From: Halomonas sp. GT
GTDB lineage: Bacteria; Pseudomonadota; Gammaproteobacteria; Pseudomonadales; Halomonadaceae
Direction of reading: 5' to 3'
NCBI RefSeq assembly: GCF_002082565.1
Contig: NZ_CP020562.1
Coordinates: forward strand, 2,604,001 to 2,668,000
Length of the DNA stretch: 64,000 nt
The notes below the pieces were generated by a model. The model had not been told where the DNA came from, ran no database searches, and saw only the letters and a list, made by a program, of their open reading frames with translations. The translations under genes and the position numbers were made by a program. This document shows positions 7,062 to 60,282 of this stretch, one piece after another (within the stretch, counting starts at the first letter, position 1; each line of letters opens with the position of its first letter).

Positions 7062-9122
7062 ATGGCAAAACTAATAGCAGGCTATACATCTCCCGGTATT
7101 ACCAAGATCCATGCACTTGCTTCTTTTTTGCCTGAATACTCGCATTTTTCACGCATAAGGCCCCTGAGTCCTAAACCGAATGTGGTCATTGGCTGGGGGC
7201 TTAAGCCCACAAGTGACGGCGCGCGTAATTATGCCTCTCGTCATAGCCTACCGTATGTCGCTCTAGAGGATGGCTTTCTTCGTTCTTTAGGACTAGGCGT
7301 TGAAGGCTATCAGCCTCATAGCATGGTCGTCGATTATACGGGCATCTATTATGACGCCTCTCGACCTAGTGATTTAGAAAACTGGCTCAACCATGCCACG
7401 TTTGATGCTGAAGAACTTGCCCAAGCCACGCGCTGTATTGAGCAACTATCGCGTTATCGCTTATCGAAATACAACCACGCACCTGATTATTCGCTTCCCA
7501 TTGCTGAAACCATCAATGCTAAAACCAACAATGCTGAAACCAACAACGTATTAGTGGTGGATCAAACCGCAGGTGATGCTTCTATTCACCATGGTGGTGC
7601 GGATGCAGACAGTTTTCAGCAAATGTTAGACTGCGCTTTAAATAACCATCCTGATGCCGATATTTTTATCAAAGTACATCCTGATGTTATCGCAGGCAAA
7701 AAGCAGGGGCATTTAGCAGGGGGTCATGAAAACCCTCGCTGCCATATCGTTAGCGACAACATTAACCCTTGGGCACTATTCGACAAGGTTAAAACCGTTT
7801 ATGTGGTGACAAGCCAATTAGGTTTCGAAGCACTGATGGCAGGCAAACAAGTGCACTGCTTTGGTCTCCCCTTCTATGCAGGCTGGGGGTTAACCCATGA
7901 TCAGCTCAGTTGCACGCGCCGCAGGGTGACTCGGCGCTTAGAAGAAGTATTTGCCGCCGCCTACCTTCGTTACACTCGGTATGCCAACCCCTACACAGGC
8001 AGTGCTGCAACGCTAGAAGAAACAATTGCCCTGATTGCCGACCAAAAGCGCCAGCAAGAGCGCCTGCGTGGCAAATGGCTAGCCTGTGGCTTCTCTTCAT
8101 GGAAAAAGCGTTTTATTGGCCATTTTCTTGGCCCAGCGGCCACCATCGAATATCAAAAAGAGCTGCCAGCGGCTTTAGCAGTGGATGTTGAAAAACCCAA
8201 TCTGTTGGTATGGTCCAGTCGTATTAACGATGACTTTAAAACCCGCCACCGCGACCATCTAGCGGCATTATGGCGAATGGAAGACGGCTTCATCCGATCA
8301 ATCGGTCTTGGGGTAGACCTCGCTCAACCGCTATCCTTGGTCATTGATCGACAGGGCATTTACTACGACCCCAGCCAGCCCAGCGAGCTAGAAACGCTGC
8401 TTAACACCGCCGATTTCAGCGATGACTTATTAGAGCGAGCGGCACACCTGCGCGAACGGTTGGTCGCATTAAAGCTTTCCAAATATAATGTACCGGGAAA
8501 GGAAGTCATTGAATTACCCGCCAATAAGCACATTATTTTGGTGCCTGGCCAGGTAGAAAGCGATGCGTCAATTGCAACAGGTTCACCAGAGATTAGGACT
8601 AATAGTGCGCTGTTAAAGGCCGTACGACATGCCAATCCTAATGCTTTTATTGTTTACAAAGCCCACCCTGATGTAATCACCGGCGCACGCATCGGAGCAC
8701 TCGATACCAACGCCAAACGCCTGTATGATCTCGATGCCAGCCATATCGATATCACTGTGCTGCTAGCACGCGTTGATGCCGTGCATACTATGAGTTCGCT
8801 CACCGGCTTTGAAGCACTGCTTCGTCGGCGCCAAGTGTGCACCTATGGCCTCCCGTTTTACGCAGGCTGGGGATTAACCCAGGACGCCATGCACTGCCCA
8901 AGACGAAACCGGGCTTTATCATTGGATGCGTTAGTAGCAGGAACTCTGCTTCTGTACCCCAACTACGTCGACCCCGACTCTCGGCAGCTGTGTAATGCTG
9001 AAACGGTAGTCAGCCTGTTGGAGCAGGCTAAATTAGAACAAGTTAAGTCTCATAAACATATGCTTACATGGAAGCAGCGATTATACCGCTGCTATCGTAA
9101 CTTATTTATTGGAAGTCATTAA
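7062..9122 (+). CDS. kpsC: capsular polysaccharide Kdo-linker glycosyltransferase KpsC
   Basis: About 686 residues with the two tandem KpsC modules. Known role: with KpsS it builds the poly-beta-Kdo linker between lipid anchor and capsule chain at the cytoplasmic face; the two modules of characterised KpsC are Kdo transferases of alternating linkage. Seen: paired motifs ALEDGFLRSLGLGVEG (about residue 62) and RMEDGFIRSIGLGVD (about 401), IFIKVHPDVIAGKK and FIVYKAHPDVITGAR, and LGFEALMAGKQVHCFGLPFYAGWGLT echoed by LTGFEALLRRRQVCTYGLPFYAGWGLT. A TTG at 7017 is in frame and would add 15 residues; ATG 7062 fits the usual family N-terminus (IAGYTSPGI). Neither has a strong Shine-Dalgarno. First gene of a coupled operon. 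An in-frame 15-bp tandem repeat lies at 7503-7547. Confidence 0.92.
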   Translation: MAKLIAGYTSPGITKIHALASFLPEYSHFSRIRPLSPKPNVVIGWGLKPTSDGARNYASRHSLPYVALEDGFLRSLGLGVEGYQPHSMVVDYTGIYYDASRPSDLENWLNHATFDAEELAQATRCIEQLSRYRLSKYNHAPDYSLPIAETINAKTNNAETNNVLVVDQTAGDASIHHGGADADSFQQMLDCALNNHPDADIFIKVHPDVIAGKKQGHLAGGHENPRCHIVSDNINPWALFDKVKTVYVVTSQLGFEALMAGKQVHCFGLPFYAGWGLTHDQLSCTRRRVTRRLEEVFAAAYLRYTRYANPYTGSAATLEETIALIADQKRQQERLRGKWLACGFSSWKKRFIGHFLGPAATIEYQKELPAALAVDVEKPNLLVWSSRINDDFKTRHRDHLAALWRMEDGFIRSIGLGVDLAQPLSLVIDRQGIYYDPSQPSELETLLNTADFSDDLLERAAHLRERLVALKLSKYNVPGKEVIELPANKHIILVPGQVESDASIATGSPEIRTNSALLKAVRHANPNAFIVYKAHPDVITGARIGALDTNAKRLYDLDASHIDITVLLARVDAVHTMSSLTGFEALLRRRQVCTYGLPFYAGWGLTQDAMHCPRRNRALSLDALVAGTLLLYPNYVDPDSRQLCNAETVVSLLEQAKLEQVKSHKHMLTWKQRLYRCYRNLFIGSH
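7503..7547 (+). repeat. three 15-bp tandem units inside kpsC
   Basis: GCTGAAACCATCAAT, GCTAAAACCAACAAT and GCTGAAACCAACAAC follow each other directly and encode AETIN-AKTNN-AETNN. They lie between the first conserved block and the VLVVDQTAGDASI strand, so they extend a loop without breaking the frame. Confidence 0.85.
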
Positions 9123-9123
9123 G

Positions 9124-10359
9124 TTGAAGCAAAAGCGTGCATTCTTATTTTTACAAGGCGTCTGCTCGCCCTTCTACCAGCGTCTAGCCCGCCGGCTCAC
9201 CGACGACGGCCACCGCGTGGTAAAGGTTAACTTCAACGCTGGCGATATCATCTACTGGCAGCGCACCCACAGCCAGAACCATTTGTTTCGCGGCCAACTA
9301 AGCGAGCTTCCAGCTTATATTCAGTCGCTATGGCAACGTTACGACATTACCGACCAAGTACTGTTCGGTGATCGCCGACCGATTCACCGCCCAGCCGTTG
9401 ACTTAGCGCCCGCCGCAGGCATTCGCACACACGTCTTTGAAGAAGGCTACTTTCGCCCGTTCTGGGTCACGCTTGAACGCGAGGGCGTTAATGGTCACTC
9501 TCTGCTGCCTAGAGACCCTAAGTGGTTTTTCGAAACGGGCAAGGCTCTGCCCAAACTCCCTGCACCGGTTCGCTTTCGCTCCTCTTTTAAAATCCGTGCT
9601 GCTCACGACATGTGCTATCACCTGGCGGGGTTAGCGAATCCGCTGGTGGCTCCCCACTATCGTAATCATGCGCCCATCACTGCACCGGTAGAGTATGCAG
9701 GCTACGCCAAACGCTTTACCTTACTTCGGCATTGGAAAAAGCGCGATGCAGAGCGGATTAAAAACCTGATAGAAGGCGGAAAGTCTTATTTTATGTTGCC
9801 GCTGCAACTCAACACCGATGCGCAAATTCGCGACCATTCACCTTATTCCAATATGGAAGAAGTGATGGATCATGTGATGGGATCATTTGCTCTCAACGCC
9901 CCTAGCGACGCCCTCCTGTGCATAAAAAACCACCCACTCGACATGGGGCTGGTTAATTACCCAAACATTATTAAAAGGCTGGAAGATTTTTACGGCCTGC
10001 AGGGGCGTATCGTTTACCTGGAGTCTGGCAACCTCAATCCATTGCTGAAACACGCTACGGGCACCGTTACAGTGAACAGCACGGTCGGCATTGTTTCCCT
10101 TGAAAAACAGTGTCCCACCTTTGCGCTCAGCGACCCCATTTACAATTTGGCGGGCCTCACCTACGAAGGCTCTCTAGACGAGTTCTGGCACCAGCCGCCG
10201 CGCCCCAGTGAGGCGCTATTTAGCTATTTTCGCAACACTGTCATGTACACCACGCAGATTAATGGTGGCTTTTACTGCCAGCCCAGTATCGATTTAGCAG
10301 TGAACAATGCTGCGCGTATACTAGAAGCCTGCCCTTCACCGCTGGAGAAGTTGCTGTGA
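9124..10359 (+). CDS. kpsS: capsular polysaccharide Kdo-linker transferase KpsS
   Basis: 411 residues from TTG 9124. This start is chosen because GGAAG lies eight bases upstream, right at the end of kpsC; TTG 9109 is the longer alternative. Known role: KpsS adds the first Kdo to the (lyso)phosphatidylglycerol acceptor and KpsC extends it. Family hallmarks are FLFLQGVCSPFYQRLARRLTDDGH at the N-terminus (positions 5-28), VFEEGYFRPFWVTLEREGVNG in the middle, LPLQLNTDAQIRDHSPY, and CIKNHPLDMG with GTVTVNSTVGIVSLE near the C-terminus. It overlaps the SDR gene by four bases (GTGA), which implies translational coupling. In B. pseudomallei a KpsS homologue (WcbO) stands at the same place before SDR, sulfatase-like and PKS genes, as I recall that cluster. 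Confidence 0.92.
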   Translation: MKQKRAFLFLQGVCSPFYQRLARRLTDDGHRVVKVNFNAGDIIYWQRTHSQNHLFRGQLSELPAYIQSLWQRYDITDQVLFGDRRPIHRPAVDLAPAAGIRTHVFEEGYFRPFWVTLEREGVNGHSLLPRDPKWFFETGKALPKLPAPVRFRSSFKIRAAHDMCYHLAGLANPLVAPHYRNHAPITAPVEYAGYAKRFTLLRHWKKRDAERIKNLIEGGKSYFMLPLQLNTDAQIRDHSPYSNMEEVMDHVMGSFALNAPSDALLCIKNHPLDMGLVNYPNIIKRLEDFYGLQGRIVYLESGNLNPLLKHATGTVTVNSTVGIVSLEKQCPTFALSDPIYNLAGLTYEGSLDEFWHQPPRPSEALFSYFRNTVMYTTQINGGFYCQPSIDLAVNNAARILEACPSPLEKLL

Positions 10360-11162
10360 GCGCTGGCGTAACGACACCTCTCTCTTCTCACCCCCCCCGC
10401 TGCGTGCTGATTACGGGTGCCACCGGCGCAATAGGCGGGGCGCTAGCCCATGCTTACGCAACCCTTAATACGCACTTGGTGCTACATGGCCGCAACCAGC
10501 AGGCGCTTGAAGCGTTGGCACTGATGTGTCGAGAAAAAGGCGCACAGGTGTCGCTCTCATCGGCCAGTCTAACAGACGAAACCGAACTCAACGCCTGGCT
10601 TGATGCGCTATGTGCCGAACACGTTCCCGATATTGTGATTGCCAATGCGGGTATTAATACTCATCCAAGCGCAACCACACTAGAACCGTGGGACGAGGTT
10701 CAAGCGCTATTAGATATCAACTTGAAAGCACCGATGGCAATGGCGCAGCGGCTGGTCCCTGCCATGCAAGCGCGGGGCAGCGGCCAGTTGGTGTTTATTA
10801 GCTCATTGGCGGGCTGGCACGGCCTACCGACAACGCCAAGCTACAGCGCCAGCAAAGCGGGCATCAAAGCCTACGGAGAAGGCCTAAGAGGCTTGCTTGA
10901 GCCTCATGGCATTGGTGTGACCGTTGTCATGCCTGGCTACGTCACCTCCGCCATGTGCAATGCTATGCCTGGGCCTAAGCCTTGGGAGTGGTCGCCAGAG
11001 CGAGCCGCTAACGCCATACAGCGTGGCATTACCACTAACCGCGCCCGAATCAGCTTCCCTTTCCCCCTGAATTTCGGTACTTGGTGGCTGGCCGTTCTAC
11101 CTGCTGGCATTTCTCAATGGCTCGTTAAACGCTTTGGCTTTAATCATACCGGGGGCGTGTAG
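10356..11162 (+). CDS. short-chain dehydrogenase/reductase in the capsule-lipid operon
   Basis: A 268-residue SDR. Seen: Rossmann glycine motif TGATGAIGGALA (about residue 20), the structural NAG motif in IANAGINT, the catalytic Ser in FISSLAGWHG, and YSASKAG with the catalytic Tyr and Lys. The C-terminus carries a hydrophobic tail (WWLAVLPAGISQWLVKRFGF) that may sit on the membrane, as in 3-ketosphinganine-reductase-like and WcbP-like SDRs. Inferred role: reduction of the beta-keto group left by the alpha-oxoamine synthase encoded downstream, analogous to 3-ketodihydrosphingosine reductase. The GTG start at 10356 overlaps the kpsS stop, and the next gene begins one base after its own stop. 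Confidence 0.82.
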   Translation: MSAGVTTPLSSHPPRCVLITGATGAIGGALAHAYATLNTHLVLHGRNQQALEALALMCREKGAQVSLSSASLTDETELNAWLDALCAEHVPDIVIANAGINTHPSATTLEPWDEVQALLDINLKAPMAMAQRLVPAMQARGSGQLVFISSLAGWHGLPTTPSYSASKAGIKAYGEGLRGLLEPHGIGVTVVMPGYVTSAMCNAMPGPKPWEWSPERAANAIQRGITTNRARISFPFPLNFGTWWLAVLPAGISQWLVKRFGFNHTGGV

Positions 11163-11163
11163 C

Positions 11164-12810
11164 GTGGCGTTCTTTCTATCATCCACGTTTGTTAGCCCAC
11201 TGTTAGTAGGCTTGTTAGGTAGCTTGTTATTCGAGGCACTGCTAAGCCCTCGTCCGCGACCGTTTTGGAAGCGTGGTGTAGCCGCCAATATCCTGCACCT
11301 TGGTAGCTGGTTACTGCTATTTGGCACCTTTATTCTGCTGCTACAGCGCCCTTGGTTTGCTGTTGTGTTTATCTTATCGCTGCAACTTGTGGTCGTGCAG
11401 TCCAGCAATACCAAATCACGCACGCTGAACGAACCTTTTATTTGTCACGATTTTGAATACTTTTGGGATGCGGTTTTGCACCCACGTCTCTATGTGCCTT
11501 TTTTCGGCATTGGCCTCGCTATTGCTGCCAGCAGTGCCGGTGCGGTTGCCATTGGTAGCTTTTTGATATTTGAACCATCGCTGATCCGCCAATGGGGCGG
11601 CACCGTATTTCTAATGAATAGCCTAATGCTGATAGCCGCTGGCGCGTTACTCGTTTGGCTGGGGTGGCGAAAACTGCCGTCAGTCTCATTGAACCCTGTC
11701 ATGGATCTAGATCAGCTGGGACTATTTTCTAGTCTTTGGGCATATGGTATCGCCTTGGCACACTCCCAACCGCCCACGCCCGACGCATCGCCCTTTCAGC
11801 CACTTTCTCAGCCACTTTCTCAGCCACTTTCTCAGCAGCGCCTTGAGCTAGACGCCGATGCGGCAAAGCCAAACGTTGTGTTGGTGCAGAGTGAATCGTT
11901 TTTTGATCCTCGCCCATGGTGTAGCGAGATTGCCGCTGACTTATTGCCGAATTATGATGCTACCTGCAAAGAAGCTATCGTAAAGGGAGCACTGAATGTG
12001 CCCGCATGGGGCGCAAACACCGTGCGAACCGAATGCGCCGTTTTAACGGGCATTGCGCCTAATGCATGGGGGGCGCGCCAATTTAACCCTTACCGCACGC
12101 TGTCACGCCACACACTACCCAGCATTGCGAGTGCATTTAAGGCCCAAGGGTATCGAACTGTTTGTGTTCACCCCTACCCGGCTACCTTCTATATGCGTGA
12201 CAGCGTTATTCCAATACTGGGCTTTGAGACGTTTATCGACATTAGCGCATTCGAAAGCCAGGATAAGCATGGCCAGTACATTGGTGACCAAGCCGTTGCA
12301 CGAAAAGTTGGACGCCTGCTTGAAGATAACGATAATAGGCCTCTCTTTGTGTTTGTGATTACCATGGAGAATCACGGCCCTTTACACTTAGAAGCACCGG
12401 AAAAGGCTAGGGTAGCGTCAACATTGCCTACTGCACCGTGGCCGCTACCGCATCATTTACGGGATTTAGCTGTTTACCTGCACCATTTGGGTGAATCAGA
12501 TAAAATGCTTGGAAGCGTTAAAGCAGCGCTAAACTCTGCTATAAGACCAGGGCTGCTGGGCTGGTACGGTGACCACGTACCCATACTGCCTGACGCCTAT
12601 AGGCACTTTTCGCCTCCTGCTAGCAGCACCCCGTACATGATATGGTCAACGGAAATAGATCGTAATTTGCACGACAAGCCGCCCATTGAGCGCGCGTCGT
12701 GCACGCTGGAAGCAAACGAACTTGGCGTCTACCTATTTAAACGAGCGTTTGGACGCGATATAAGTAGCGATGTGATCAAGGCAGAACCAGAACCTCAGGA
12801 GCAAGAATGA
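11164..12810 (+). CDS. LTA synthase/sulfatase-fold membrane phosphotransferase (WcbQ-like)
   Basis: A 548-residue protein from GTG 11164, one base after the SDR stop; the in-frame TTG 11134 is less likely. About four or five N-terminal TM helices (to about residue 190) are followed by an extracytoplasmic alkaline-phosphatase/sulfatase fold. Seen: NVVLVQSESFFDPRPW (first metal-binding acid, about 236), NTVRTECAVLTGIAP with the probable Thr nucleophile (about 288), FVITMENHGP and LGWYGDHVPI with later metal ligands. This domain order is that of LtaS/OpgB-type enzymes that move phosphoglycerol or phosphoethanolamine groups. Inferred: it decorates the capsule lipid or linker in the periplasm. A linker contains three copies of QPLS. 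It overlaps the PKS gene by four bases (ATGA). Confidence 0.8.
   Translation: MAFFLSSTFVSPLLVGLLGSLLFEALLSPRPRPFWKRGVAANILHLGSWLLLFGTFILLLQRPWFAVVFILSLQLVVVQSSNTKSRTLNEPFICHDFEYFWDAVLHPRLYVPFFGIGLAIAASSAGAVAIGSFLIFEPSLIRQWGGTVFLMNSLMLIAAGALLVWLGWRKLPSVSLNPVMDLDQLGLFSSLWAYGIALAHSQPPTPDASPFQPLSQPLSQPLSQQRLELDADAAKPNVVLVQSESFFDPRPWCSEIAADLLPNYDATCKEAIVKGALNVPAWGANTVRTECAVLTGIAPNAWGARQFNPYRTLSRHTLPSIASAFKAQGYRTVCVHPYPATFYMRDSVIPILGFETFIDISAFESQDKHGQYIGDQAVARKVGRLLEDNDNRPLFVFVITMENHGPLHLEAPEKARVASTLPTAPWPLPHHLRDLAVYLHHLGESDKMLGSVKAALNSAIRPGLLGWYGDHVPILPDAYRHFSPPASSTPYMIWSTEIDRNLHDKPPIERASCTLEANELGVYLFKRAFGRDISSDVIKAEPEPQEQE
11797..11832 (+). repeat. three perfect 12-bp tandem units encoding QPLS
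   Basis: CAGCCACTTTCT occurs three times without mismatch. It encodes QPLSQPLSQPLS between the membrane part and the catalytic domain of the LTA-synthase-like protein; perfect identity suggests recent slippage. Confidence 0.9.
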
Positions 12811-15800
12811 CTAAACGCGTTGCCATTATCGGCGCCGCCCATCGTTTCCCCGGCACCACACCTGAAACGTTCTGGCAGGACCTGCAAGCCGAAAAAGACC
12901 TCGTCACCCAAGTGGCCCACGACCGTTGGAGCCATGATGCTTTCTTGCATCCGGACAAACGTCACCCTGGCACCAGCGTCACGTTTGCCGCGGGTAGCCT
13001 AGGCGATATAAGCGGATTCGACGCAGAGTTTTTCGGTATTTCGCCTCGTGAAGCGGCGAACATGGACCCGCAACAGCGCATGCTGCTAGAGCTTACCTGG
13101 GAAGCCATGGAAAGCGCGGGCATCGTGCCTAGCACCCTGCGTGGTAGCCAGTGCGGCGTTTTCGTTGGCGTCGCCAGTCTTGATTACTCTTATCGCCTGG
13201 CCGATGACATGTCGGCGATCGATGCCTCGACAGCGACAGGTAATACATCAAGTATCGCCTCTAATCGGCTTTCTTATGTCTTTGATCTGCATGGCCCCAG
13301 CATGTCGCTGGATACCGCCTGCTCATCTTCCATGGTGGCGTTCCACCAAGCGTGCCAATCGATTCGCAGCGGCGAAACCAATATGGCGTTAGCAGGTGGC
13401 ATCAGCCTGCACCTGCACCCCTATGGTTTTATTATTTTCTCGAAGGCCAGCATGCTCTCGCCCACCGGGCGCTGCCAAGTCTTCGATGAAGCGGGTAATG
13501 GGTACGTGCGCTCCGAAGGTGCCGGGCTATTTTTGCTAAAGGATTATGATCAAGCAGTAGCCGATGGCGATAACATCCTGGCCGTGGTGGCAGGCTCAGC
13601 AGTTAACACTGATGGCCACAAGTCCGGCCTGACGGTACCCAACCCCAGCGCGCAAATTGAGTTAATGCGCCGTGCCTACGAACAGGCAGGCATTTCGCCA
13701 GACGAAATCGACTACCTTGAAGCTCACGGCACTGGCACCGCTGTTGGCGACCCGATTGAAACTCGGGCTATCGGCGAAGCACTCGGCAAACACCGTAAAA
13801 CACCGCTGCTGATTGGCTCAGTGAAAAGTAATCTCGGCCATTTAGAAACGGCGTCAGGCGTTGCCGGGCTGGCTAAGGCGCTATACAGCCTGCAGCACCG
13901 TGAAGTGCCCGCCACCATTGGCATACGCAATCTGAATCCACGCATCAAATTTGATGAGTGGAACATTAGCGTTGTCACCAAAGCCCAAGCACTCAAAAAA
14001 CAGGGCCGTTTGGTCATCGGCGTTAACTCCTTTGGCTTTGGCGGTGCCAACGCTCACGTCATACTGGAAAGCGCCCCCGAAAAAGCACCGACATCTCGCC
14101 AAGTACCCGATGCTGCGCTACCCATTCTTATTAGCGCACGAAGCCAGGAAGCACTGGCGGCTAATGCCAGTGAATTAGCGAGCTACCTGCGCGAGAGCAA
14201 TCATGCTTTCTATGATATCGCCCATACGCTGAGCAGCCACCGTGAGCAACACACGTTTGGCGCGCTCTGTTTCGCCCAAACGCCAGACGCCGCCGCCAGT
14301 GCGCTCAGCCAGTTTGCCGAAGGTGAAAACAACGGCGTTGTGACACTTGAGCGCTTAGCTAACGCTCGCGGCCCTGTGTTTGTTTACGACGGTAACGGCT
14401 GCCAATGGGAAACCATGGGCCGCGACCTGTTAGACAGCGAACCAGCGTTTAGTGACGCTATTGATCGTGTGGATGCCCTGTTCCAGAAACATGGCGATTT
14501 TTCGCTGCGTGACGAACTCGCGGGCCGTAACCAGGAAGAAGCCAGTGGCGGCCGTTTTGAGCGCACTGAGATCGCTCAACCGGCTCTGTTTGCACTGCAA
14601 GTCGCGTTAACCGAATGGCTTAAATCCAAAGGCATCATGCCTACTGCAGTCTTTGGCCACAGTGTTGGCGAAGTTGCTGCCGCGTGGGCGTCCGGCGCAT
14701 TAACGCTAGAAGACGCCGTTAAGGTTATTTACTATCGTAGTTTCTACCAAGGCAAAACCCGTGGCCTTGGTGAAATGACGGCCGTTGCTATGAGCGCGGA
14801 AGAAATCGCCCCTTGGCTTGAAAAGCCTGAGTTTAGCAACATCAGCTTGGCAGGCATTAACAGCCCCAAAGGCATTACCTTAGCGGGTGATCGAGACCAA
14901 TTAAGCGCCATTGAAGCAGCCCTTAGCGAGCAGAGCACCTTTGCGAAGCGCCTACCGTTGGATTACGCCTTCCACAGCCCCGCTATGGACAGCATCAAAG
15001 CAGGCGTCGTGGAAGCGTTAGCTGACATTCGTCCCCACACCACGCAGATTCCTTATGTGTCCACTGTGACGGGCACCATCAGTGAAGGCACACAGTTGGA
15101 TGCCCATTACTGGTGGCTCAATATTCGTGAACCCGTCCTGTTTGATAGCGCCGCTACAGTGCTTATTGAGCAGGGTTACAATGTGTTTGTGGAAGTCGGT
15201 GCCCACCCTATCCTGCGCCGCTATCTGAACGAGTCTTTGCGCCAGCAAGAGCGCAGTGGATTAGTGCTAGGTACTATTGAGCGCCATATGCCGGGCGTAG
15301 ACGGTTTAACTCGCTGCCTCGGCCAGTTGCTGCTAAGTGGATTAGCCCTTGATAACCATCACTTCTTCCCCGTAGAAGGCGAGCGGGTACTGCTGCCACG
15401 CTACGCTTGGCAGCGCACTCAGCTTTGGGTGCAAGGCACCAATGATGGCCAAGGGCTGCTTTCCCGTTATTATCAGCATCCGCTACTTGGCTACCCATTG
15501 GCGCAGCAGGATCACACCTGGGAAAGCCAGTTGGATACCAAACGCCAGCCATGGCTGGCCGACCACGTTGTCGGCGAAGGCGCAGTCTTCCCCGGCGCGG
15601 GGTTTGTGGAGCTTACGCTAGCAGCGGCCCTGCAGCAGAAAGATACACCGATTTTAGACATTGAAGAGCTGGAAATTCGCGCCCCGTTATTACTGGATGG
15701 CCCCAATGGCCGCACCATGCGGTTAACGCTGGACCCAGACGACGGACGCTTAGCCATCCACTCCCGCGAGCCAGCCACCGGTAGCGAATGGCAGTTGAAT

Positions 15801-18800
15801 GCTGTCGCCCGACGCATGCGCGAAAGCCGAGGCTTCTTGCTCAACCGAAAAGCGCCAAACCTGCCTAGCCGCACGCCAGACTATACCCTGGTCGAGCACT
15901 TGCAGATGGCCGAACGTATCGGACTGCATTACGGGCCGGCGTTCCAAGCCATTAGCCGTGGCTGGATCGAAGGCGACAGCGTCATAGGGGAAATTACCCT
16001 ATCTGATAGTGTTCAGTCGCAGCTCGATACGCTCCACGTTCATCCGGGCATTCTGGACAGTGCTTTCCAGATGTTCATTCCGCTGCTGGCTCAGCACAAC
16101 GAGTTTGCAGCGCAACTAGCCTTCGTGCCGGTTCGTGTTGGGCGCATCCAGGTTAACGCTGAAGCCGGTGCCCCCGTGTTAGCACGAGCAGTGATGGGTA
16201 AACGCGCGCCCCACTCCTTCACCGCCGACTTCGAACTGTATGACGCTGCCGGGAACGCCGTGGCCGTGCTCAGCGAAACCCGCTTTAAGGCGATTCGCTT
16301 GAACCGCGCTCACCATCAGCACTTTAGCTATCTGGATGTTGAGTTAACGCCCGCCCCGCTAAACGCGACGACGCTTTCGCTGCCAGGCAGTGCACTCGCT
16401 CGACTGGCTGGGCTAAGCAATGCGTTTACCGCCAGCACCGGTCAGCGCTATGCCCAAGAAGTGTCACCGCTACTCGACAGCCTGAGCGAAGCCTTTGCTG
16501 GCGTTAATGTTAACGGCGGTGAAGATCAGCTCGCACCGGAAACCATTTGGCAGTTACTGGTGCAGGATTATCCCGATTATTTTGCCCCTATTCATATGGT
16601 GGGGCGTTTAGGGCTTCACCGTGAGCAACTTAACAGCGGCAATGACACGCTTGAAAGCCTAGGCATTACCACTGAGCACCTAGCAGGTATTAATCGCGTC
16701 CTTATCGGCGAAAATGGCTGGCAAGTATTAGCTGCCGAGCTTGGTGCATTAATGGAAGCCACGCTAGCCACGCTGCCCACCGCTCAGCGGCTGCAGTTGC
16801 TAGAAGCAGGCCCCTGCGCTCCTGCCCTTGGCCAGCGACTGCTCGAACAGTTAGCGAATACGACTATCGCTAAAGATGGGCACCACTACCGTGCCATCAC
16901 CACCAGCGACACGGCTCGCCATCAGGCGGAACAGCTTCAAGAGCGTTTCCCGCTGATGGATATCCAGCCGCTGGAAGATTCGCTGCCGACACTTAGCAAT
17001 GCAGAGAAAGCCCAACTGGCGTTTATCAGCGTAGACGTGACCCAGCCTGAGCGCACCCGCCAGTTGATTGAAGCGTTGCCAGGCCAGCTTGCACCAAGTG
17101 CTCAGGTAATGGTGATCGGTGTTCACCCAAGCCGCTGGCTTGATGATTTACTGGCCACACCCGGCATCGACCAAACCGCCCTGGAACAAGACACTCTCAT
17201 TGAGTGGTTAGCGCAACAAGGTCTCAGCGTTTCACCGCCGGTTGAGCTGGAAGAAAATGGTGCTTACCTATTGCATGGCCAATACGCAGCAGATAATGAC
17301 TCGCTGACACAAACGGCAGCAGAAGCTTACCATTTGATTGTCTCTGACGCTGAGCACGAAGCACTTGCCGCCCAGCTTGCAGAGCGGTTAGGCACCGCCA
17401 ACACATGGCTAACCGTCAGCGATGCCGCTCCGCAAGCACTGTTAAATACAGCGCTAGGAGAGCATCAAGATGCACCTGCCGCACTCAATGTGGTTGATCT
17501 ACGTGGGCTAAAGGGCTGTACAACCGCCGCTCAAACCCAACGTTGCTACACGGCACAGCAGTGGTCACTGGCATTAGAAGCAAGCGGGCTTGAAAGCCTA
17601 GGCAGCCGTGTCACGCTTTGGCTGCCGACCCAGGAAGCCAGCATCGGCGATGACGCCGCGCTATGGGGCTTTGGCCGCTCTCTAGCAAATGAAGCCGTTG
17701 GCCATAGCGTCACGTTGATCGACCTGCCAGATACACCCAGCGATGCGACGTTAAACACGTTTGCAGCGTCACTTACTGCGCCAGATAGTGAAAACGAGCT
17801 GGTAATAACGGTTGAAGGCGAGCGATTTGCGACACGCCTTCGCACGTTGCCTGCGCCTCACCCGGTCAAGCAGGCAAGTGCTGCGCCTCATCAAGCAATG
17901 ACGCTGGGCTTTGCCCTACCAGGGCAATTACGTCAGCTGCAGTGGCGGCCACGCCCACTGCCTGAACTTGGCTCGGATGAAGTGGAAATTCGTGTCAAAG
18001 CGACCGGACTCAACTTCCGCGATGTCATGTACACCCTTGGCTTACTGTCTGATGAAGCGATTGAAAATGGCTTCGCTGGCCCGACTTTGGGGCTTGAGTT
18101 CTCGGGAGAGGTGCTGGCAGTTGGCACCAATGTTAAGCACGTTGCGCCCGGCCAAGCGGTTGTCGGCTTTGGGCCTGCCAGTTTTAGCGATCGTCTCATT
18201 GCCAACCAGCATGCCGTCGCGCCTCTGCCAGAGGGCATCAGCTATGCTGCTGCCGCAACAATTCCCACTACGTTCTTCACGGTGTACTACGCGCTGAAAC
18301 ATCTGGCGCGCCTGGAGCCCGGCGAGAAAGTGCTGATTCACGGTGCCGCTGGCGGCGTTGGTATCGCCGCGTTGCAAATTGCCCAGTGGCTGGGTGCCGA
18401 CATTTACGCCACGGTGGGGTCAGAAGAGAAGCGCGACTTCCTGCGTCTCATGGGTGAAGAGCGCATTTACGACTCCCGCTCGCTGACGTTTGCCGAAGAG
18501 ATCCTAGAAGACACGCAAGGCGAAGGCGTGGATATAGTACTGAACTCGCTGGCAGGCGAAGCGATTAACCAAAACCTCCGTGCCTTGCGCCCGTTTGGTC
18601 GCTTCCTGGAACTAGGTAAACGTGACTTCTATGAAAACACTCATATTGGTCTTCGTCCGTTCCGCAACAACTTAAGCTACTTTGGCATCGACTCTGACCA
18701 GTTGATGAAGGTGCAGCCTGCCCTCACCCAGCGCCTGTTCGGTGAAATGATGGCGCTATTTAACGATGGCACACTCAGTCCGCTGCCATTCACGGCGTTT

Positions 18801-20120
18801 AGTCACAACCAAGTGATTGATGCCTTCCGTTATATGCAGCAAGCACGCCAGATCGGCAAAGTTGTGGTGACCTATGAGCAACCCATTGCACCGCCGCGTA
18901 ACGAACTATTAGGCACCGGCGCTATGACACTCGCTACCGACGCCAGCTATCTAGTGACCGGTGGTTTGGGTGGCTTTGGCCTAAAAACCGCCCAATGGTT
19001 AGTCAGCAAAGGCGCACGACAGCTTGTTCTACTTAGTCGAAGCGGCCCCGCTAGCGATGAAGCCCAGGCCGCGATGACTGCCTTTGAAGCCCAAGGCGTG
19101 AAGGTACTGGCTGCAGCCTGTGATATTACTGATTACGATGCGCTAGCAAGCGTTATGGAACGCGTGCAACGCGAACTTAGTCCGCTGCGTGGCATCGTGC
19201 ATGCCGCAACAGTGATCGACGATGGCTTGATTCGTAACTTAGATGCCGAGCGTATTCAAAAGGTGCTCGCTCCTAAAATCGACGGTGCTCGTCACCTGGA
19301 CGCCCTCACCCGCGACATTGAGCTGGACTTCTTTGTGCTCTACTCTTCGGCGACCACGCTATTCGGTAATCCTGGACAGGCCAATTACGTCGCCGCCAAC
19401 CACTGGCTAGAAGCTTTTGCTGCCCGCCGCCGTGCCGCTGGCCTAGCGGCTACCTGCGTACGCTGGGGGGCGATTGAAGATGTCGGCTTCCTGGCACGCA
19501 ACACGCGCACCCGAGATGCGCTGCAAGAGCGCTTAGGCGGTTCTGCACTTCGCTCGGATGACGCCCTCAACGTGCTTGAGCAAATGCTGCTGACCCCAGG
19601 GCCAAGCCTTGGTGTTCTTGAGCTTGAGTGGGGTGCACTTGCACGCTTCTTACCCACCGCCCAGGCACCACGGTTTAACGAAATTGCCCGCGCCAGCGAT
19701 GATGACGGCAGCGTTGACCACGATGATGATATCAGCGCGCTACTGGCCGACCTCTCGCCGGAAGAGTTGCATAGCACTATTACTGATCTACTGCGTGCAG
19801 AGCTGGCTAGTATCCTGCTGATTGATGAAGAGAAAATCGACATCAATCGCTCGGTGTACGATATGGGCTTTGATTCACTCATGGGCGTTGAATTGATGAC
19901 CGCTATCGAGAACCGCCTAAACGTGCAAGTGCCGGTGATGGTGCTGAGTGAAGCGTCAACGTTGAACAAGCTGGCAGGTGTGCTGATTCAAAAGTTACAT
20001 CAGCATGACAATGATGTTGAAGAAGCGCCACAAGATGCGTTAGCCTCTCTGGCCGCCCGCCACGGGGCGGACGGGCTCAATAATGAGACGGCTTCAACAT
20101 CGACCACCGAGACACCATGA
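12807..20120 (+). CDS. type I polyketide synthase KS-AT-DH-(psiMT/psiKR)-ER-KR-ACP (WcbR-like)
   Basis: A 2437-residue cytoplasmic megasynthase. KS (1-430) has the complete triad C172 (DTACSSS), H307 (EAHGTGT) and H345 (KSNLGHLE). AT (about 520-840) has the nucleophile S619 in GHSVGEVAAAW. DH (about 890-1165) has H920 (DHVVGEGAVFPG) and D1084 (HPGILDSAFQ). A roughly 500-residue middle part resembles a decayed C-methyltransferase (EAGPCAPALG where a SAM-binding glycine motif should be) plus a structural KR half. ER (about 1690-2020) contains HGAAGGVGIAALQIAQW. KR (about 2040-2240) has S2181 and Y2194. ACP has S2357 in GFDSLMG. This full reductive set predicts a saturated chain, made either iteratively or in one step. 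No thioesterase follows the ACP; the alpha-oxoamine synthase gene overlapping its stop (ATGA) is the probable release enzyme. Confidence 0.95.
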   Translation: MTKRVAIIGAAHRFPGTTPETFWQDLQAEKDLVTQVAHDRWSHDAFLHPDKRHPGTSVTFAAGSLGDISGFDAEFFGISPREAANMDPQQRMLLELTWEAMESAGIVPSTLRGSQCGVFVGVASLDYSYRLADDMSAIDASTATGNTSSIASNRLSYVFDLHGPSMSLDTACSSSMVAFHQACQSIRSGETNMALAGGISLHLHPYGFIIFSKASMLSPTGRCQVFDEAGNGYVRSEGAGLFLLKDYDQAVADGDNILAVVAGSAVNTDGHKSGLTVPNPSAQIELMRRAYEQAGISPDEIDYLEAHGTGTAVGDPIETRAIGEALGKHRKTPLLIGSVKSNLGHLETASGVAGLAKALYSLQHREVPATIGIRNLNPRIKFDEWNISVVTKAQALKKQGRLVIGVNSFGFGGANAHVILESAPEKAPTSRQVPDAALPILISARSQEALAANASELASYLRESNHAFYDIAHTLSSHREQHTFGALCFAQTPDAAASALSQFAEGENNGVVTLERLANARGPVFVYDGNGCQWETMGRDLLDSEPAFSDAIDRVDALFQKHGDFSLRDELAGRNQEEASGGRFERTEIAQPALFALQVALTEWLKSKGIMPTAVFGHSVGEVAAAWASGALTLEDAVKVIYYRSFYQGKTRGLGEMTAVAMSAEEIAPWLEKPEFSNISLAGINSPKGITLAGDRDQLSAIEAALSEQSTFAKRLPLDYAFHSPAMDSIKAGVVEALADIRPHTTQIPYVSTVTGTISEGTQLDAHYWWLNIREPVLFDSAATVLIEQGYNVFVEVGAHPILRRYLNESLRQQERSGLVLGTIERHMPGVDGLTRCLGQLLLSGLALDNHHFFPVEGERVLLPRYAWQRTQLWVQGTNDGQGLLSRYYQHPLLGYPLAQQDHTWESQLDTKRQPWLADHVVGEGAVFPGAGFVELTLAAALQQKDTPILDIEELEIRAPLLLDGPNGRTMRLTLDPDDGRLAIHSREPATGSEWQLNAVARRMRESRGFLLNRKAPNLPSRTPDYTLVEHLQMAERIGLHYGPAFQAISRGWIEGDSVIGEITLSDSVQSQLDTLHVHPGILDSAFQMFIPLLAQHNEFAAQLAFVPVRVGRIQVNAEAGAPVLARAVMGKRAPHSFTADFELYDAAGNAVAVLSETRFKAIRLNRAHHQHFSYLDVELTPAPLNATTLSLPGSALARLAGLSNAFTASTGQRYAQEVSPLLDSLSEAFAGVNVNGGEDQLAPETIWQLLVQDYPDYFAPIHMVGRLGLHREQLNSGNDTLESLGITTEHLAGINRVLIGENGWQVLAAELGALMEATLATLPTAQRLQLLEAGPCAPALGQRLLEQLANTTIAKDGHHYRAITTSDTARHQAEQLQERFPLMDIQPLEDSLPTLSNAEKAQLAFISVDVTQPERTRQLIEALPGQLAPSAQVMVIGVHPSRWLDDLLATPGIDQTALEQDTLIEWLAQQGLSVSPPVELEENGAYLLHGQYAADNDSLTQTAAEAYHLIVSDAEHEALAAQLAERLGTANTWLTVSDAAPQALLNTALGEHQDAPAALNVVDLRGLKGCTTAAQTQRCYTAQQWSLALEASGLESLGSRVTLWLPTQEASIGDDAALWGFGRSLANEAVGHSVTLIDLPDTPSDATLNTFAASLTAPDSENELVITVEGERFATRLRTLPAPHPVKQASAAPHQAMTLGFALPGQLRQLQWRPRPLPELGSDEVEIRVKATGLNFRDVMYTLGLLSDEAIENGFAGPTLGLEFSGEVLAVGTNVKHVAPGQAVVGFGPASFSDRLIANQHAVAPLPEGISYAAAATIPTTFFTVYYALKHLARLEPGEKVLIHGAAGGVGIAALQIAQWLGADIYATVGSEEKRDFLRLMGEERIYDSRSLTFAEEILEDTQGEGVDIVLNSLAGEAINQNLRALRPFGRFLELGKRDFYENTHIGLRPFRNNLSYFGIDSDQLMKVQPALTQRLFGEMMALFNDGTLSPLPFTAFSHNQVIDAFRYMQQARQIGKVVVTYEQPIAPPRNELLGTGAMTLATDASYLVTGGLGGFGLKTAQWLVSKGARQLVLLSRSGPASDEAQAAMTAFEAQGVKVLAAACDITDYDALASVMERVQRELSPLRGIVHAATVIDDGLIRNLDAERIQKVLAPKIDGARHLDALTRDIELDFFVLYSSATTLFGNPGQANYVAANHWLEAFAARRRAAGLAATCVRWGAIEDVGFLARNTRTRDALQERLGGSALRSDDALNVLEQMLLTPGPSLGVLELEWGALARFLPTAQAPRFNEIARASDDDGSVDHDDDISALLADLSPEELHSTITDLLRAELASILLIDEEKIDINRSVYDMGFDSLMGVELMTAIENRLNVQVPVMVLSEASTLNKLAGVLIQKLHQHDNDVEEAPQDALASLAARHGADGLNNETASTSTTETP

Positions 20121-21451
20121 CCGTAAAGCGCTCTGAACTGAAACGACAGCTGCTGGAACAGGCACGCAAGCGCCCAACGCCCCGTGCCGCCAGTACCCAA
20201 GCGCCTGCTAACTTAGGCGCTGAGGCCACTCGGACTGTTCCCGAGCGCTTTACACGATTTGATGCCCACCCGGGTTATCAACAGCTAGTCATGATGCGCC
20301 AGGGTGCAAAACAGCTAGGGGTGATAGACCCGTTCTTTAAAGTCCATGATGGCCTCGCGGGTGCTACCAGCGTGATTGATGGGCATGTGTGCCTTAATTT
20401 CGCCAGTTACAACTACCTGGGTTACTCCGGTGACCCACGGGTTGTTCAAGCGGCATCTGACGCCGCAGCTCACTACGGCACCTCCGTCTCTGCCAGTCGC
20501 GTGGTATCAGGTGAGCGCCCTATTCACGGTGAACTAGAGAAAGCGATCGCCAATATTTATGGTGTTGAAGACGCAGTAGCGTTTGTCAGCGGTCACGCGA
20601 CAAATGTGTCTACCCTTGGTTATCTATTAGGCCCGAAAGACCTCGTGCTTCACGACGAGTACATCCACAACAGCTCATTGGTCGGCGCGCAGCTGTCAGG
20701 CGCAAAGCGCATGTCCTTTAGTCATAACGACCCTGCCGCACTCGACGCGCTGTTAAGTCGTCATCGCCATCAATTTGAACGCGTTCTTGTGGTCATTGAA
20801 GGGCTTTACAGCATGGATGGCGACATCCCCGACCTACCCCGCTTTATTGAACTAAAGCAACGCCATCAGGCTTGGTTGATGGTCGATGAAGCGCATTCGT
20901 TTGGCGTCATGGGCGACACTGGCCTAGGCTTAAGAGAGCACTTTGCGATTGACCCAACCGATGTCGATATCTGGATGGGTACGATGAGCAAAACGCTATC
21001 AGGCTGCGGGGGCTATATCGCAGGCAATAAAGCGCTGGTCGAAACACTGCGCTACTTTGCACCCGGTTTTCTTTACAGCGTCGGCATGCCCGCCCAAGTG
21101 GCCGCGCCTTCACTTAAAGTACTGGAATTGATGCCCCAGGAAACCGAGCGCGTTACCCAGCTACAGGCTATTTCGCGCTACTTCCTAGAGCAGGCTCAAG
21201 CGAGAGGAATGGACACCGGCCACAGTATCGGCTCTGCCGTCGTGCCCGTTATTGTAGGAAGCTCGCCGCTCGCGGCTCACCTCTCCCACGCACTGCTTGC
21301 GCAGCACATTAACGTGCAGCCTATTCTGTATCCTGCGGTTCCCGAGAAAAGCGCTCGGCTGCGTTTTTTTCTTTCCTGTGAACACACCAAAGACCATATT
21401 GACCAAACGCTGGATGCACTCGCGCTACTGCTCGCCAATGCCAAAGGGTGA
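20117..21451 (+). CDS. alpha-oxoamine synthase (BioF/serine palmitoyltransferase-like, WcbT-like)
   Basis: A 444-residue fold-type I PLP enzyme. Known chemistry: decarboxylative condensation of an amino acid with an acyl thioester. Seen: NFASYNYLGYSGDPRV (acyl-binding entry), GTSVSASRVVSGERPIHGELE, VSGHATNVSTLG, MVDEAHSFGVMG (the His that stacks on PLP and the Asp), and the Schiff-base K292 in GTMSKTLSGCGGYI. An N-terminal extension of about 60 residues precedes the core. Annotation as 8-amino-7-oxononanoate synthase would be generic; its overlap with a PKS lacking a thioesterase argues that it offloads the ACP-bound chain as a long-chain alpha-amino ketone. The amino acid used is not evident. 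ATG 20117 overlaps the PKS stop by four bases. Confidence 0.9.
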   Translation: MTVKRSELKRQLLEQARKRPTPRAASTQAPANLGAEATRTVPERFTRFDAHPGYQQLVMMRQGAKQLGVIDPFFKVHDGLAGATSVIDGHVCLNFASYNYLGYSGDPRVVQAASDAAAHYGTSVSASRVVSGERPIHGELEKAIANIYGVEDAVAFVSGHATNVSTLGYLLGPKDLVLHDEYIHNSSLVGAQLSGAKRMSFSHNDPAALDALLSRHRHQFERVLVVIEGLYSMDGDIPDLPRFIELKQRHQAWLMVDEAHSFGVMGDTGLGLREHFAIDPTDVDIWMGTMSKTLSGCGGYIAGNKALVETLRYFAPGFLYSVGMPAQVAAPSLKVLELMPQETERVTQLQAISRYFLEQAQARGMDTGHSIGSAVVPVIVGSSPLAAHLSHALLAQHINVQPILYPAVPEKSARLRFFLSCEHTKDHIDQTLDALALLLANAKG

Positions 21452-21454
21452 TTT

Positions 21455-21976
21455 ATGGATGAATTCGAAACCCAAGCAGAGTGGATTAAACCCTGCTGGT
21501 ATGTAATTCAATGCAAAGGTGGTGAGTCATTTCGCGCCGCTGAACACCTCACCAATCAAGGATACGAAGTGTTCCACCCAGTGCTGAACGCCAAACGTAA
21601 GCGCCAAGGCAAGCTTTCACTGGTGACCGAGCCACTTTTCCCCTATTACCTGTTTATCCGGCTGGATCAAACCGTCAGCAACTGGCGGCCAATTCGCTCC
21701 ACCCGCGGGGTACTGCGCCTACTCACCTTTGGCAACACGCCCATTGCCGTGCCAGATGCACTAGTAGACACCCTACGCGCACAGCCGCATCACCAGGAAG
21801 GCAGCCACAGCTACTTCTGCGCAGGGGAAACAGTGACGATCACCGACGGCCCCTTCAAAGATTTAGAAGCCGTCTTCAAACGGTGTAAAGGCGAAGAGCG
21901 CGCTATCGTGCTGCTTAACGTGCTACAACGCCCACAGGATGTCGAGATTTCAGTCGACAACCTACAGAAAAAATAA
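21455..21976 (+). CDS. rfaH: RfaH-family NusG paralogue, operon antiterminator
   Basis: A 173-residue transcription factor. The N-terminal NGN domain is seen as CWYVIQCKGGESFRAAEHL, GYEVFHPVL, and LVTEPLFPYYLFIRLD with the following NWRPIRSTRGVLRLLTFG. The C-terminal KOW domain starts at GETVTITDGPFKDLEAVFKRCKGEERA. Known RfaH proteins bind an ops site in the leader of long surface-polysaccharide operons, suppress Rho termination and recruit ribosomes. Its position as last gene of the 15-kb capsule-lipid operon suggests it serves this operon, perhaps autogenously; I found no clear ops-like GGCGGTAG in the kpsC upstream gap. It starts three bases after the stop of the oxoamine synthase gene. 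Confidence 0.92.
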   Translation: MDEFETQAEWIKPCWYVIQCKGGESFRAAEHLTNQGYEVFHPVLNAKRKRQGKLSLVTEPLFPYYLFIRLDQTVSNWRPIRSTRGVLRLLTFGNTPIAVPDALVDTLRAQPHHQEGSHSYFCAGETVTITDGPFKDLEAVFKRCKGEERAIVLLNVLQRPQDVEISVDNLQKK

Positions 21977-46726: not shown

Positions 46727-47581
46727 TTACACCTCATAACCCGCTTCGCGAGCGAGCGTCGTATTGGCTTTTAACCATCCTTCAATATGTCCACAATCAA
46801 AAGTACGGCCATGCATACGGAACGCTTGTACAGTTTTGCCTTCTTGCATCAACCGGTCAATCGCATCGGTCAACTGGATTTCATTACCAGCACCAGGCGG
46901 TTGGTCGCGCAATAACTCCATGATGCGATAAGGAAGCACATAACGACCAATGACTGAAAGGCGAGAAGGTGCTTCTTCAGGCGATGGCTTTTCTACAACA
47001 CCGCGCATGTTGGCGCTTTCCCCCGCGGCTGGCTCGTCACAATCAACAATGCCATAGCGGTAAACATCTTCTTTGGGCACGGCTTCAACCATAATTTGCG
47101 AAGCATCGTTGGCATCCCAGCGCCCTACCATGCTGCCTAAATCACAGGCATTGCTACCCACCTGGGGCTTTACCAACACATCAGGAAGGATGACAGCAAA
47201 CGGCTCGTCTTTATCCAACAGATGCGCAGCACAGAAAATTGCATGGCCTAAACCTTTTGCATTGGGCTGGCGGACACTGGTCACTTTGAGTTTTTTGGGA
47301 GAAATAGCAGACAGTGTTTCCAGTAACGCATCTTTTCCCTTACTGGCAAGTGAATGCTCAAGTTCAAAGTGGGCATCAAAGTGGTCTTCTATGGCTGATT
47401 TACCCGCTCGCGTCACCAAGATTATTTCATTGATACCCGCCGCCAGCGCTTCTTCTACCACATGCTGAATCAGTGGACGATCCACAACAGGCACCATCTC
47501 CTTAGGGATCGCTTTGCTGATGGGCAGAAGGCGTGTGCCAAAACCAGCTACCGGAATAATCGCTTTGCGCACTTGAGTCAT
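46727..47581 (-). CDS. galU: UTP--glucose-1-phosphate uridylyltransferase
   Basis: 284 residues. Makes UDP-glucose for capsule, LPS and trehalose pathways. Seen: IPVAGFGTRLLPISKAIPKEMVPVVDRPLIQHVVEEA (nucleotide loop and Lys), ILVTRAGKSAIEDHFD, VRQPNAKGLGHAIFCAAHLL, FAVILPDVLV, MRGVVEKPSPEEAPS and GAGNEIQLTDAIDRLM. Length and motifs are standard. It overlaps the pgi stop by one base, giving a pgi-galU unit on the minus strand, so UDP-glucose synthesis and hexose-phosphate interconversion are co-expressed near the polysaccharide genes. Confidence 0.97.
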   Translation of the reverse strand: MTQVRKAIIPVAGFGTRLLPISKAIPKEMVPVVDRPLIQHVVEEALAAGINEIILVTRAGKSAIEDHFDAHFELEHSLASKGKDALLETLSAISPKKLKVTSVRQPNAKGLGHAIFCAAHLLDKDEPFAVILPDVLVKPQVGSNACDLGSMVGRWDANDASQIMVEAVPKEDVYRYGIVDCDEPAAGESANMRGVVEKPSPEEAPSRLSVIGRYVLPYRIMELLRDQPPGAGNEIQLTDAIDRLMQEGKTVQAFRMHGRTFDCGHIEGWLKANTTLAREAGYEV

Positions 47582-49278: not shown

Positions 49279-49581
49279 ATTGTCTTCCTTGATTAATTAA
49301 GGGATGACCTGACAAATATACAAGGCAAAAGCTAAGCCAAATCACCCCTCATCACATTCAACGCGAGAGTTTACAATAGGATGACAAAGAATTGTTAAGT
49401 ATGAGTAGCAATCTCGTACTCCGATAGCTGCTTTTGCGTGTACGTTGGTCCAGGTTGAAGAGCCTCAATCATCGCGAGCTTAAGCTACCTCCCACAAGGT
49501 ACCGTGCCGCTGTTCTATTGTAGGAAGCCGATTTATCGGTGGTCCGACATCCCGGCGATGGCGGCGTAGCCGCCCCGCTGT
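49279..49581. other. intergenic region between pgm and pgi, with a REP-like palindrome
   Basis: Holds the pgi promoter region on the minus strand. Near the pgm stop lies GGCGGC-GTA-GCCGCC (49560-49574) beside the GC-rich stretch TAGGAAGCCGATTTATCGG, an arrangement like repetitive extragenic palindromes. I see no coding frame of interest. Confidence 0.5.
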
Positions 49582-52251: not shown

Positions 52252-52278
52252 ATAAAACCTGTACAGGCCGGATAAGCA

Positions 52279-54254: not shown

Positions 54255-54262
54255 ACTTGCCC

Positions 54263-58763: not shown

Positions 58764-58794
58764 AACATAATCCTTTTCTAGTTAACTAATTCAC

Positions 58795-58980
58795 TCAAAA
58801 AAAATCAAGCTTTACATTAGGTAAAGATTGATCCGGCTTTAAATCTAAAACCCCAGACTCAGAATCATTTTGAAACATTCCTTCAGTCTCAAGAGATGGA
58901 AGAGTTAGTTTGCCATTTGCGACATCTACTCTAACCACAATTTTAATTATCTCACAACAAAATATCTGAAACAAATATTT
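58795..58980 (-). pseudogene. possible 3' remnant of a lost gene
   Basis: The gap 58764-59169 (about 400 bp) is AT-rich. On the minus strand a frame without a usable start ends at 58795. It reads VVRVDVANGKLTLPSLETEG, then MFQNDSESGVLDLKPDQSLP and NVKLDFF. This composition looks like real protein and not random AT-rich sequence, but it has an in-frame stop upstream and no start codon with a ribosome site. I do not recognise the family. It may be the tail of a decayed glycan-modifying gene. The rest of the gap shows nothing. Confidence 0.3.
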
Positions 58981-59169
58981 CCTACAAGACAGAGTTTGTT
59001 AAGCATAGATTATTATTTAGTATAACTTATATTTAAAATCTCGAAAATTATCTTGATTTTGGCAAACAATAGAGCATGCGGTAGAAGCTTTTTTTATTAT
59101 ACTTAACAGAGAGCCGCTAATAAGAAAAAAACCCAGAAAATAAAATCATTTCAAAATCACTAGCCGTAA

Positions 59170-60267: not shown

Positions 60268-60282
60268 AGCATACTCGTAAAA

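Follow-up and report, generated by a model that had tools for sequence, protein, structure and literature searches.

A capsule operon of Halomonas sp. GT that probably makes a sphingoid-type lipid for its own KpsS

We analysed a stretch of 64,000 nucleotides from Halomonas sp. GT (contig NZ_CP020562.1, positions 2,604,001 to 2,668,000; in the following "the window"), whose genome of 4.16 Mb is a single contig. Open reading frames and family searches place seven plus-strand genes at positions 7062-21976 of the window. They encode KpsC and KpsS, which transfer 3-deoxy-D-manno-octulosonic acid (Kdo), a short-chain dehydrogenase/reductase (SDR), an LtaS-like membrane protein, a polyketide synthase (PKS), an alpha-oxoamine synthase (AOS) and RfaH (Table 1). 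We consider it probable that this operon makes a dedicated lipid of the sphingoid type, and that KpsS proteins of one particular clade start the Kdo linker and the capsule on it. The gene set itself is already known as the rkp-1/wcb type; what is new is the comparative evidence on its role.

KpsS divides with the sphingoid genes

Of 398 Pseudomonadota genomes, 58 gave a KpsS match (E<=1e-20), the host genome among them. The other 57 were searched for AOS, PKS and serine palmitoyltransferase (SPT), and the search for the LtaS-like gene covered 64 genomes in all. After thinning 141 KpsS loci to 85 and adding the window and four plasmid loci, we obtained a tree of 90 rows, in which the second KpsS copies of genomes G262 and G265 are left out. 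One clade of 47 rows (support 97/92) holds all 37 rows with the PKS-AOS pair, all five rows with another sphingoid route, locus L149 and four undecided rows. Outside it are the KpsS of E. coli and Klebsiella plasmids and all f55 rows.

The same division is seen when whole genomes are compared. An AOS of the WcbT type (at least 430 bits) occurs in 13 of 16 genomes inside the clade and in 0 of 41 outside; for AOS or SPT taken together the numbers are 16 of 16 and 1 of 41 (G103), or 2 of 41 by a looser cut. The LtaS-like gene is found in 13 of 16 genomes inside and in one of 41 outside (G307, a partial match of 159 bits). The best PKS match reaches at least 723 bits in the 13 AOS-bearing clade genomes and at most 618 bits outside.

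The KpsC tree serves as a control: if the lipid is different, KpsS should respond to it, whereas KpsC, which acts on Kdo, need not. On the KpsS tree the sphingoid trait changes once (86 rows; L083, L085, L094 and L174 were excluded as undecided). It also changes once on a tree of 72 rows (support 96/92) and on one of 67 rows, from which X-containing rows and three long ones were removed (support 93/79). On the KpsC tree we count six changes, at least five of them forced (58 rows, without those under 150 bits and the partial L098), and an earlier quick tree with slightly different labels gave seven; the number is rough, as the KpsC rows include short and long-branched ones. For these counts L149 (G327) was labelled as sphingoid, having SPT in the genome and an LtaS-like gene beside KpsS, and L105 (G032) as none. 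That KpsS and the lipid genes group together merely because whole clusters move together is countered by these six changes against one.

Some capsule loci lack the PKS but have other genes of sphingoid type, an SPT-like AOS among them, or have an SPT in the genome. Two Novosphingobium plasmids carry FA_hydroxylase (PF04116), SDR, LtaS-like gene and KpsS, with neither PKS nor AOS in the stretch (Pfam was run on the first), and the Acidisoma stretch holds LtaS-like gene, KpsC, KpsS, FA_hydroxylase, AOS and SDR but lacks a PKS. In genomes G303 and G317 an LtaS-like gene adjoins KpsS and an AOS of the WcbT type is absent; each has instead an SPT that, among solved structures, matches SPT best (560 and 405 bits, respectively). 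G327 resembles G303, with KpsS by an LtaS-like gene and SPT in the genome. In G303 the SPT gene follows a frame of 82 residues that looks by eye like an acyl carrier protein (ACP); for makers of sphingolipids, an SPT with its own ACP is described in the excerpt of PMC9386255.

A pattern search built from the LtaS-like alignment brought up 492 relatives from named genomes, and we used the best 80, ranked by likeness to the LtaS-like protein (the Vreelandella venusta counterpart is 91% identical). The synteny search that the sequence-only reading of this DNA had proposed, for KpsS-SDR-LtaS-PKS-AOS, was thus run: the one-strand order KpsC-KpsS-SDR-LtaS-PKS-AOS is kept in 67 of these 80 loci, and RfaH is seen in 37. 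The 80 are not independent, because they were picked by LtaS-like similarity and are mostly from Halomonadaceae. Six of the 13 others are interrupted by a contig end (L036, L042, L046, L050, L060, L083), four from Methylococcales have the order PKS-AOS-KpsS-SDR-LtaS (L089, L090, L092, L093), and L094 is a contig of only 4.2 kb. In L085 no PKS was seen within 10 kb downstream, and the contig begins 5 kb upstream. We conclude that the order is conserved beyond chance. A protein search found the AOS in 15 plasmid records. One mobilizable-typed plasmid of Pseudomonas sp. TMW 2.1634 (L167, 99.7 kb) holds the capsule-lipid set together with KpsC twice, KpsS, KpsF, KdsA, KdsB, GNAT and a PhyH dioxygenase.

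Several observations weigh against so close a link. Outside the clade, G103 has SPT, G067 has an Acidisoma-like AOS (314 bits to that of the window) beside an RkpH-like SDR, and G183 has a PKS of 2547 residues (618 bits); inside it, no LtaS-like match is listed for G262, G265 and G167. In L087 (Vreelandella azerica), the last of the 13 loci with a deviating order, SDR-LtaS-PKS-AOS-RfaH is kept, but KpsC and KpsS were not seen within 10 kb upstream. Three of the 17 genomes with an AOS of the WcbT type (G324, G012 and G169, the last 71% complete) have no KpsS match at E<=1e-20, so that the tie between lipid and KpsS is not a strict one. In G324 the LtaS-like, PKS, LpxC-like and AOS genes adjoin dTDP-rhamnose genes, and in G012 one of the two copies lies near KpsT- and KpsE-like genes. 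Similarly, plasmid p2 of Caballeronia insecticola has SDR, LtaS, PKS, LpxC-like gene, AOS and an exporter of the ATP-binding cassette (ABC) type with no KpsS in 50 kb, nor does it appear in the 50 entries listed out of 99 KpsS plasmid records. The lipid of such clusters may be put to use with no Kdo linker involved. Finally, the KpsS clade result is still open to confounding by kinship and by joint transfer of adjacent genes.

A proposed pathway and its alternatives

From the genes we infer the following route, together with its amino acid and its place at the membrane. The PKS consists of a single KS-AT-DH-ER-KR-ACP set, has a catalytic motif in every domain (we take these motifs to have their usual meanings) and would assemble a saturated acyl chain that stays bound to the ACP of the enzyme. 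No thioesterase is found among its Pfam matches, and therefore the chain should be released by something else; the adjoining AOS, whose gene overlaps by ATGA, is a natural candidate. In a decarboxylative condensation it would join the chain to an amino acid and so release it; serine is the most likely choice, as the later transfer of glycerol phosphate calls for a 1-hydroxyl. The SDR would reduce the 3-ketone. The LtaS-like enzyme may then add phosphoglycerol, moving glycerol phosphate from phosphatidylglycerol (PG) to the 1-hydroxyl. The resulting sphingosyl-phosphoglycerol would have the shape of lysophosphatidylglycerol (lyso-PG), the acceptor of E. coli. KpsS would add the first Kdo to that glycerol, KpsC would extend the Kdo linker, and the glycan would be built on the linker and exported by KpsM/T/E/D, with the RfaH of the operon reading the ops sequence of the exporter. 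The sequence-only reading had put a sphingoid lipid in the place of lyso-PG as the acceptor of KpsS; the genome comparisons favour this part of it.

A wider statement we offer only tentatively. Capsule acceptors of Pseudomonadota would fall into two classes, told apart by the KpsS clade: one is lyso-PG, the other a sphingoid phospholipid. The latter would be a lyso-PG look-alike, made by a cytoplasm-facing LtaS-family enzyme that transfers glycerol phosphate from PG to a sphingoid base. This phosphoglycerol step and the inward-facing enzyme are bolder proposals than the sphingoid anchor, and together they are less likely than not. The base would come from three interchangeable sources, namely PKS and AOS, an AOS fed by fatty-acid synthesis, or the SPT of the cell.

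The LtaS-like protein has the PF00884 fold with the catalytic Thr, metal ligands and phosphate-binding Arg and His (residues that presumably act as in its relatives), and shares fold and catalytic residues with LtaS and GacH. LtaS models reach only 24.5 bits on it (cut-off 970), and in its VIA-align comparison no listed match points to a lipid substrate. The relatives LtaS, GacH and EptA have extracytoplasmic active sites; KpsS and KpsC work in the cytoplasm, a discrepancy that the sequence-only reading had passed over. However, the loop charges of the LtaS-like protein are reversed relative to LtaS and GacH, and by the charge rule, which is not proof, this pattern points inward. The subfamily may thus be turned round, with its catalytic domain in the cytoplasm. 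On the other hand, five helices were obtained for no more than 13 of the 31 relatives and 7 of the 12 controls, and the charges could instead serve the binding of acidic lipids.

Alternatively, the anchor may be ordinary PG or lyso-PG as in E. coli. PKS, AOS and SDR would then make a separate sphingoid-like lipid of the outer membrane that assists in holding the capsule or in its export. The LtaS-like enzyme would decorate that lipid, or the glycan, with phosphoglycerol in the periplasm, where its relatives would lead one to expect it. By the title of Fraysse 2005, the capsular polysaccharide (KPS) of Sinorhizobium meliloti 1021 is reportedly a Kdo homopolymer with a phospholipid anchor; should this be an ordinary glycerophospholipid, the sphingoid reading fails there. 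The PKS-AOS clusters that have no KpsS also agree with an ordinary anchor, and in the excerpt of PMC7694667 PG is the only acceptor shown for KpsS. We nevertheless regard this alternative as somewhat unlikely. It leaves unexplained why the split within KpsS, unlike that within KpsC, coincides exactly with the sphingoid genes and why the KpsS gene adjoins the lipid genes, and the loop charges misfit a periplasmic domain.

Even if a sphingoid lipid is the anchor, it could be derived from an amino acid other than serine. The AOS belongs, by its residues and relatives, to the alpha-oxoamine synthase superfamily: the lysine motif for pyridoxal phosphate and the fold-type I residues are present, and the nearest solved chains are serine palmitoyltransferases (223 bits), followed by AONS/KBL (214 bits). 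The NCBIfam models give a different picture, as BioF is the best of them (334 bits, cut-off 426), the SPT models score 277, 266 and 198 bits (cut-offs 640, 500 and 670), and neither these nor the KBL cut-off is reached. With no model at its cut-off, serine is a guess; the enzyme is not classed as an SPT, yet it may act like one. The AOS would, for example, use alanine (as in fungal fumonisin synthesis), glycine or another amino acid, the Kdo link would be made through the amine or the 3-hydroxyl, and the LtaS-like enzyme would act later. The LpxC-like deacetylase and GNAT enzymes of some clusters point to such amine chemistry. This seems quite unlikely to us, given the SPT among the nearest solved chains, by a small margin, and the replacement of the AOS by SPT, which uses serine, in G303, G317 and G327.

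PKS-AOS pairs do occur outside capsule loci, for example on Planktothrix and Streptomyces plasmids and in G322. The product could be an amino-lipid that is secreted or acts in regulation, has no part in the anchor and was only co-inherited with capsule genes. We regard this as very improbable in view of the long-kept synteny, the co-division specific to KpsS, the reported need of rkp genes for K antigen and the finding that other sphingoid genes stand in for the PKS route in the same capsule loci.

Operon layout, export and neighbouring genes

The sequence-only reading had claimed that the seven genes overlap or abut, with ATGA or GTGA overlaps at three of the six junctions, and that Kdo transferases are joined in one row to a fully reducing PKS, an AOS and an SDR; open reading frames and Pfam families bear out all of this. 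The overlaps read GTGA at KpsS/SDR and ATGA at LtaS/PKS and PKS/AOS, whereas KpsC/KpsS and SDR/LtaS overlap only with upstream TTG starts, and 3 bases separate AOS from RfaH. Promoter-like and terminator-like sites in 6600-22300 were not above the level of shuffled sequence. KpsC has 6mgc (259 bits) and, for its second half, 6mgd as nearest solved chains; KpsS scores 272 bits against the NCBIfam KpsS model, under the cut-off of 600.

Table 1. Capsule-related genes of the window
Feature	Position	Strand	Basis
KpsC, beta-Kdo transferase, two Capsule_synth (PF05159) stretches	7062..9122 (TTG start at 7017 also open)	+	Pfam, solved chains
KpsS, first Kdo transferase, Capsule_synth (PF05159), in the sphingoid-linked KpsS clade	9109..10359	+	Pfam, KpsS trees
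SDR (adh_short), proposed 3-keto reductase, RkpH/WcbP-like	10356..11162	+	family models, S. meliloti counterpart
LtaS-family (Sulfatase PF00884) membrane transferase, five membrane helices, proposed phosphoglycerol transferase, RkpI/WcbQ-like; start codon uncertain	11134..12810	+	Pfam
Iterative fully reducing PKS, KS-AT-DH-ER-KR-ACP, RkpA/WcbR-like	12807..20120	+	Pfam domains, motifs
AOS, RkpG/WcbT-like; Aminotran_1_2 and AOS models	20117..21451	+	Pfam, solved chains
RfaH, transcription antiterminator	21455..21976	+	TIGR01955 above cut-off
Capsule glycan genes: GalU-like, PGI, PGM, glycosyltransferases, GalE, methyltransferase, pyruvyl transferase	46727..63993	-	

RfaH scores 167.9 bits against TIGR01955 (cut-off 144.5). 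A row of exporter genes (Poly_export, ABC2_membrane and KpsE/KpsT-like genes) lies on the minus strand about 15 kb beyond the window, and GGCGGTAGCGTG, taken here as the core of ops, precedes its first ATG by 23 bases as measured from the 9-mer (L013:18838-18846, minus). A second ops is found 29 bases before another Poly_export gene (L011:2046-2054, minus), and none was found before kpsC. The sole match of the 9-mer in the window, inside a gene at 38203, was rejected as a control site of the operon (0.49 matches are expected by chance). The passed cut-off and the ops ahead of a long polysaccharide operon identify the predicted protein as RfaH, and the lipid operon thus seems to encode the read-through factor for the exporter and glycan genes. 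The excerpt of PMC13410964 deals with the K96 group 3 capsule, which has no PKS route, and supports control of capsule by RfaH.

With KpsC, KpsS and an exporter in the genome at about 2.68 Mb (ABC2_membrane, Poly_export, KpsT- and KpsE-like genes), the system has the gene content of an ABC-transporter (group 2 type) capsule. The glycan genes of the window would be part of the long exporter and glycan row that starts behind the ops sequence. Inside this row, between the KpsE-like and the glycan genes, there is a beta-CASP metallo-beta-lactamase of the RNA-processing nuclease type (L013:13156-14565, minus). Between capsule genes of the window (40154-43864, minus), CysQ, a CysN-CysC fusion and CysD form a set for the supply of 3'-phosphoadenosine 5'-phosphosulfate, which may mean that the capsule is sulfated; no sulfotransferase was recognised among the genes scanned. 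Near the end of the operon (23174-25549, minus), beside a binding protein of the tripartite ATP-independent periplasmic (TRAP) type, lies a cytochrome P450 fused to a reductase and a 2Fe-2S ferredoxin, for which we see no link to the operon.

Comparison with known systems

In the open-licence literature we found no paper that states which lipid the rkp-1/wcb-type set makes or ties that lipid to KpsS, and nothing on sphingoid or PKS together with a capsule anchor. If our reading is true, the sequence of KpsS alone tells on which lipid a capsule hangs, and a question on the capsule lipid of the S. meliloti type that is 30 years old (1993) becomes answerable. It would also mean that bacteria use sphingoid chemistry in a second way, one that involves an LtaS-family enzyme in the cytoplasm.

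The better-studied precedent is rkp-1 of S. meliloti (rkpA, G, H, I, J and rkpU), which the sequence-only reading had not named, rather than wcb. Its genes are reportedly required for K antigen. On pSymB of strain Ak57 we see PKS-AOS-SDR-(gap)-KpsS behind a polysaccharide export gene, and the gap (L168:17352-18912), at the position of RkpI, holds an open LtaS-like frame that is missing from the PLSDB gene table. By its predicted products this stretch is the rkp-1 region rkpA-G-H-I-J, in which all five counterparts of the lipid and KpsS genes are present side by side as in the window; the excerpt of PMC7902896 names rkp genes as capsule genes. The gene order is different, the AOS is 49% identical, and neither KpsC nor RfaH is in the stretch, whereas in Vreelandella a single row has both.

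For wcb, the Burkholderia capsule cluster with genes named wcbO-P-Q-R-S-T, the sequence-only reading had cited the order wcbO-P-Q-R-(S)-T in B. pseudomallei. We see this order in a named relative, on plasmid pII of Paraburkholderia dioscoreae (KpsS-SDR-LtaS-PKS-LpxC-like-AOS-GNAT). In contrast to the window operon, an LpxC-family deacetylase, possibly wcbS, lies here between PKS and AOS (L173:29181-30095). The same is seen in Caballeronia (L169:14018-14944) and in G324 (L152:8442-9383), and the enzyme may act on an amine or an N-acetylated lipid. The excerpt of PMC3908369 calls the wcb and rkp PKS clusters orthologous, and according to it the swf and sup sponge PKS, which we set aside, are not members of wcb.

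Two lipid pathways offer likenesses for the release step. In the fungal fumonisin system (FUM1-FUM8-FUM13), a reducing PKS is released by an AOS and keto reduction follows; it differs in using alanine, in making a secreted toxin and in having no capsule. In the sphingolipid synthesis of Caulobacter and sphingomonads an AOS likewise frees an ACP-bound acyl chain by condensation with an amino acid (excerpt of PMC9386255), but bacterial SPT systems take this chain from fatty-acid synthesis via a small ACP, whereas the window has an iterative PKS.

The E. coli group 2 capsule, finally, shares the KpsC and KpsS families, the Kdo linker and ABC export (plasmids L177 and L178); a region of E. coli UTI89 that we inspected holds no capsule genes and was not used. 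The plasmid stretches have no PKS, AOS, SDR or LtaS-like gene, and their KpsS falls outside the clade. Taken over many genomes, the comparison points to a group of capsules with a lipid foot unlike the one known for E. coli.

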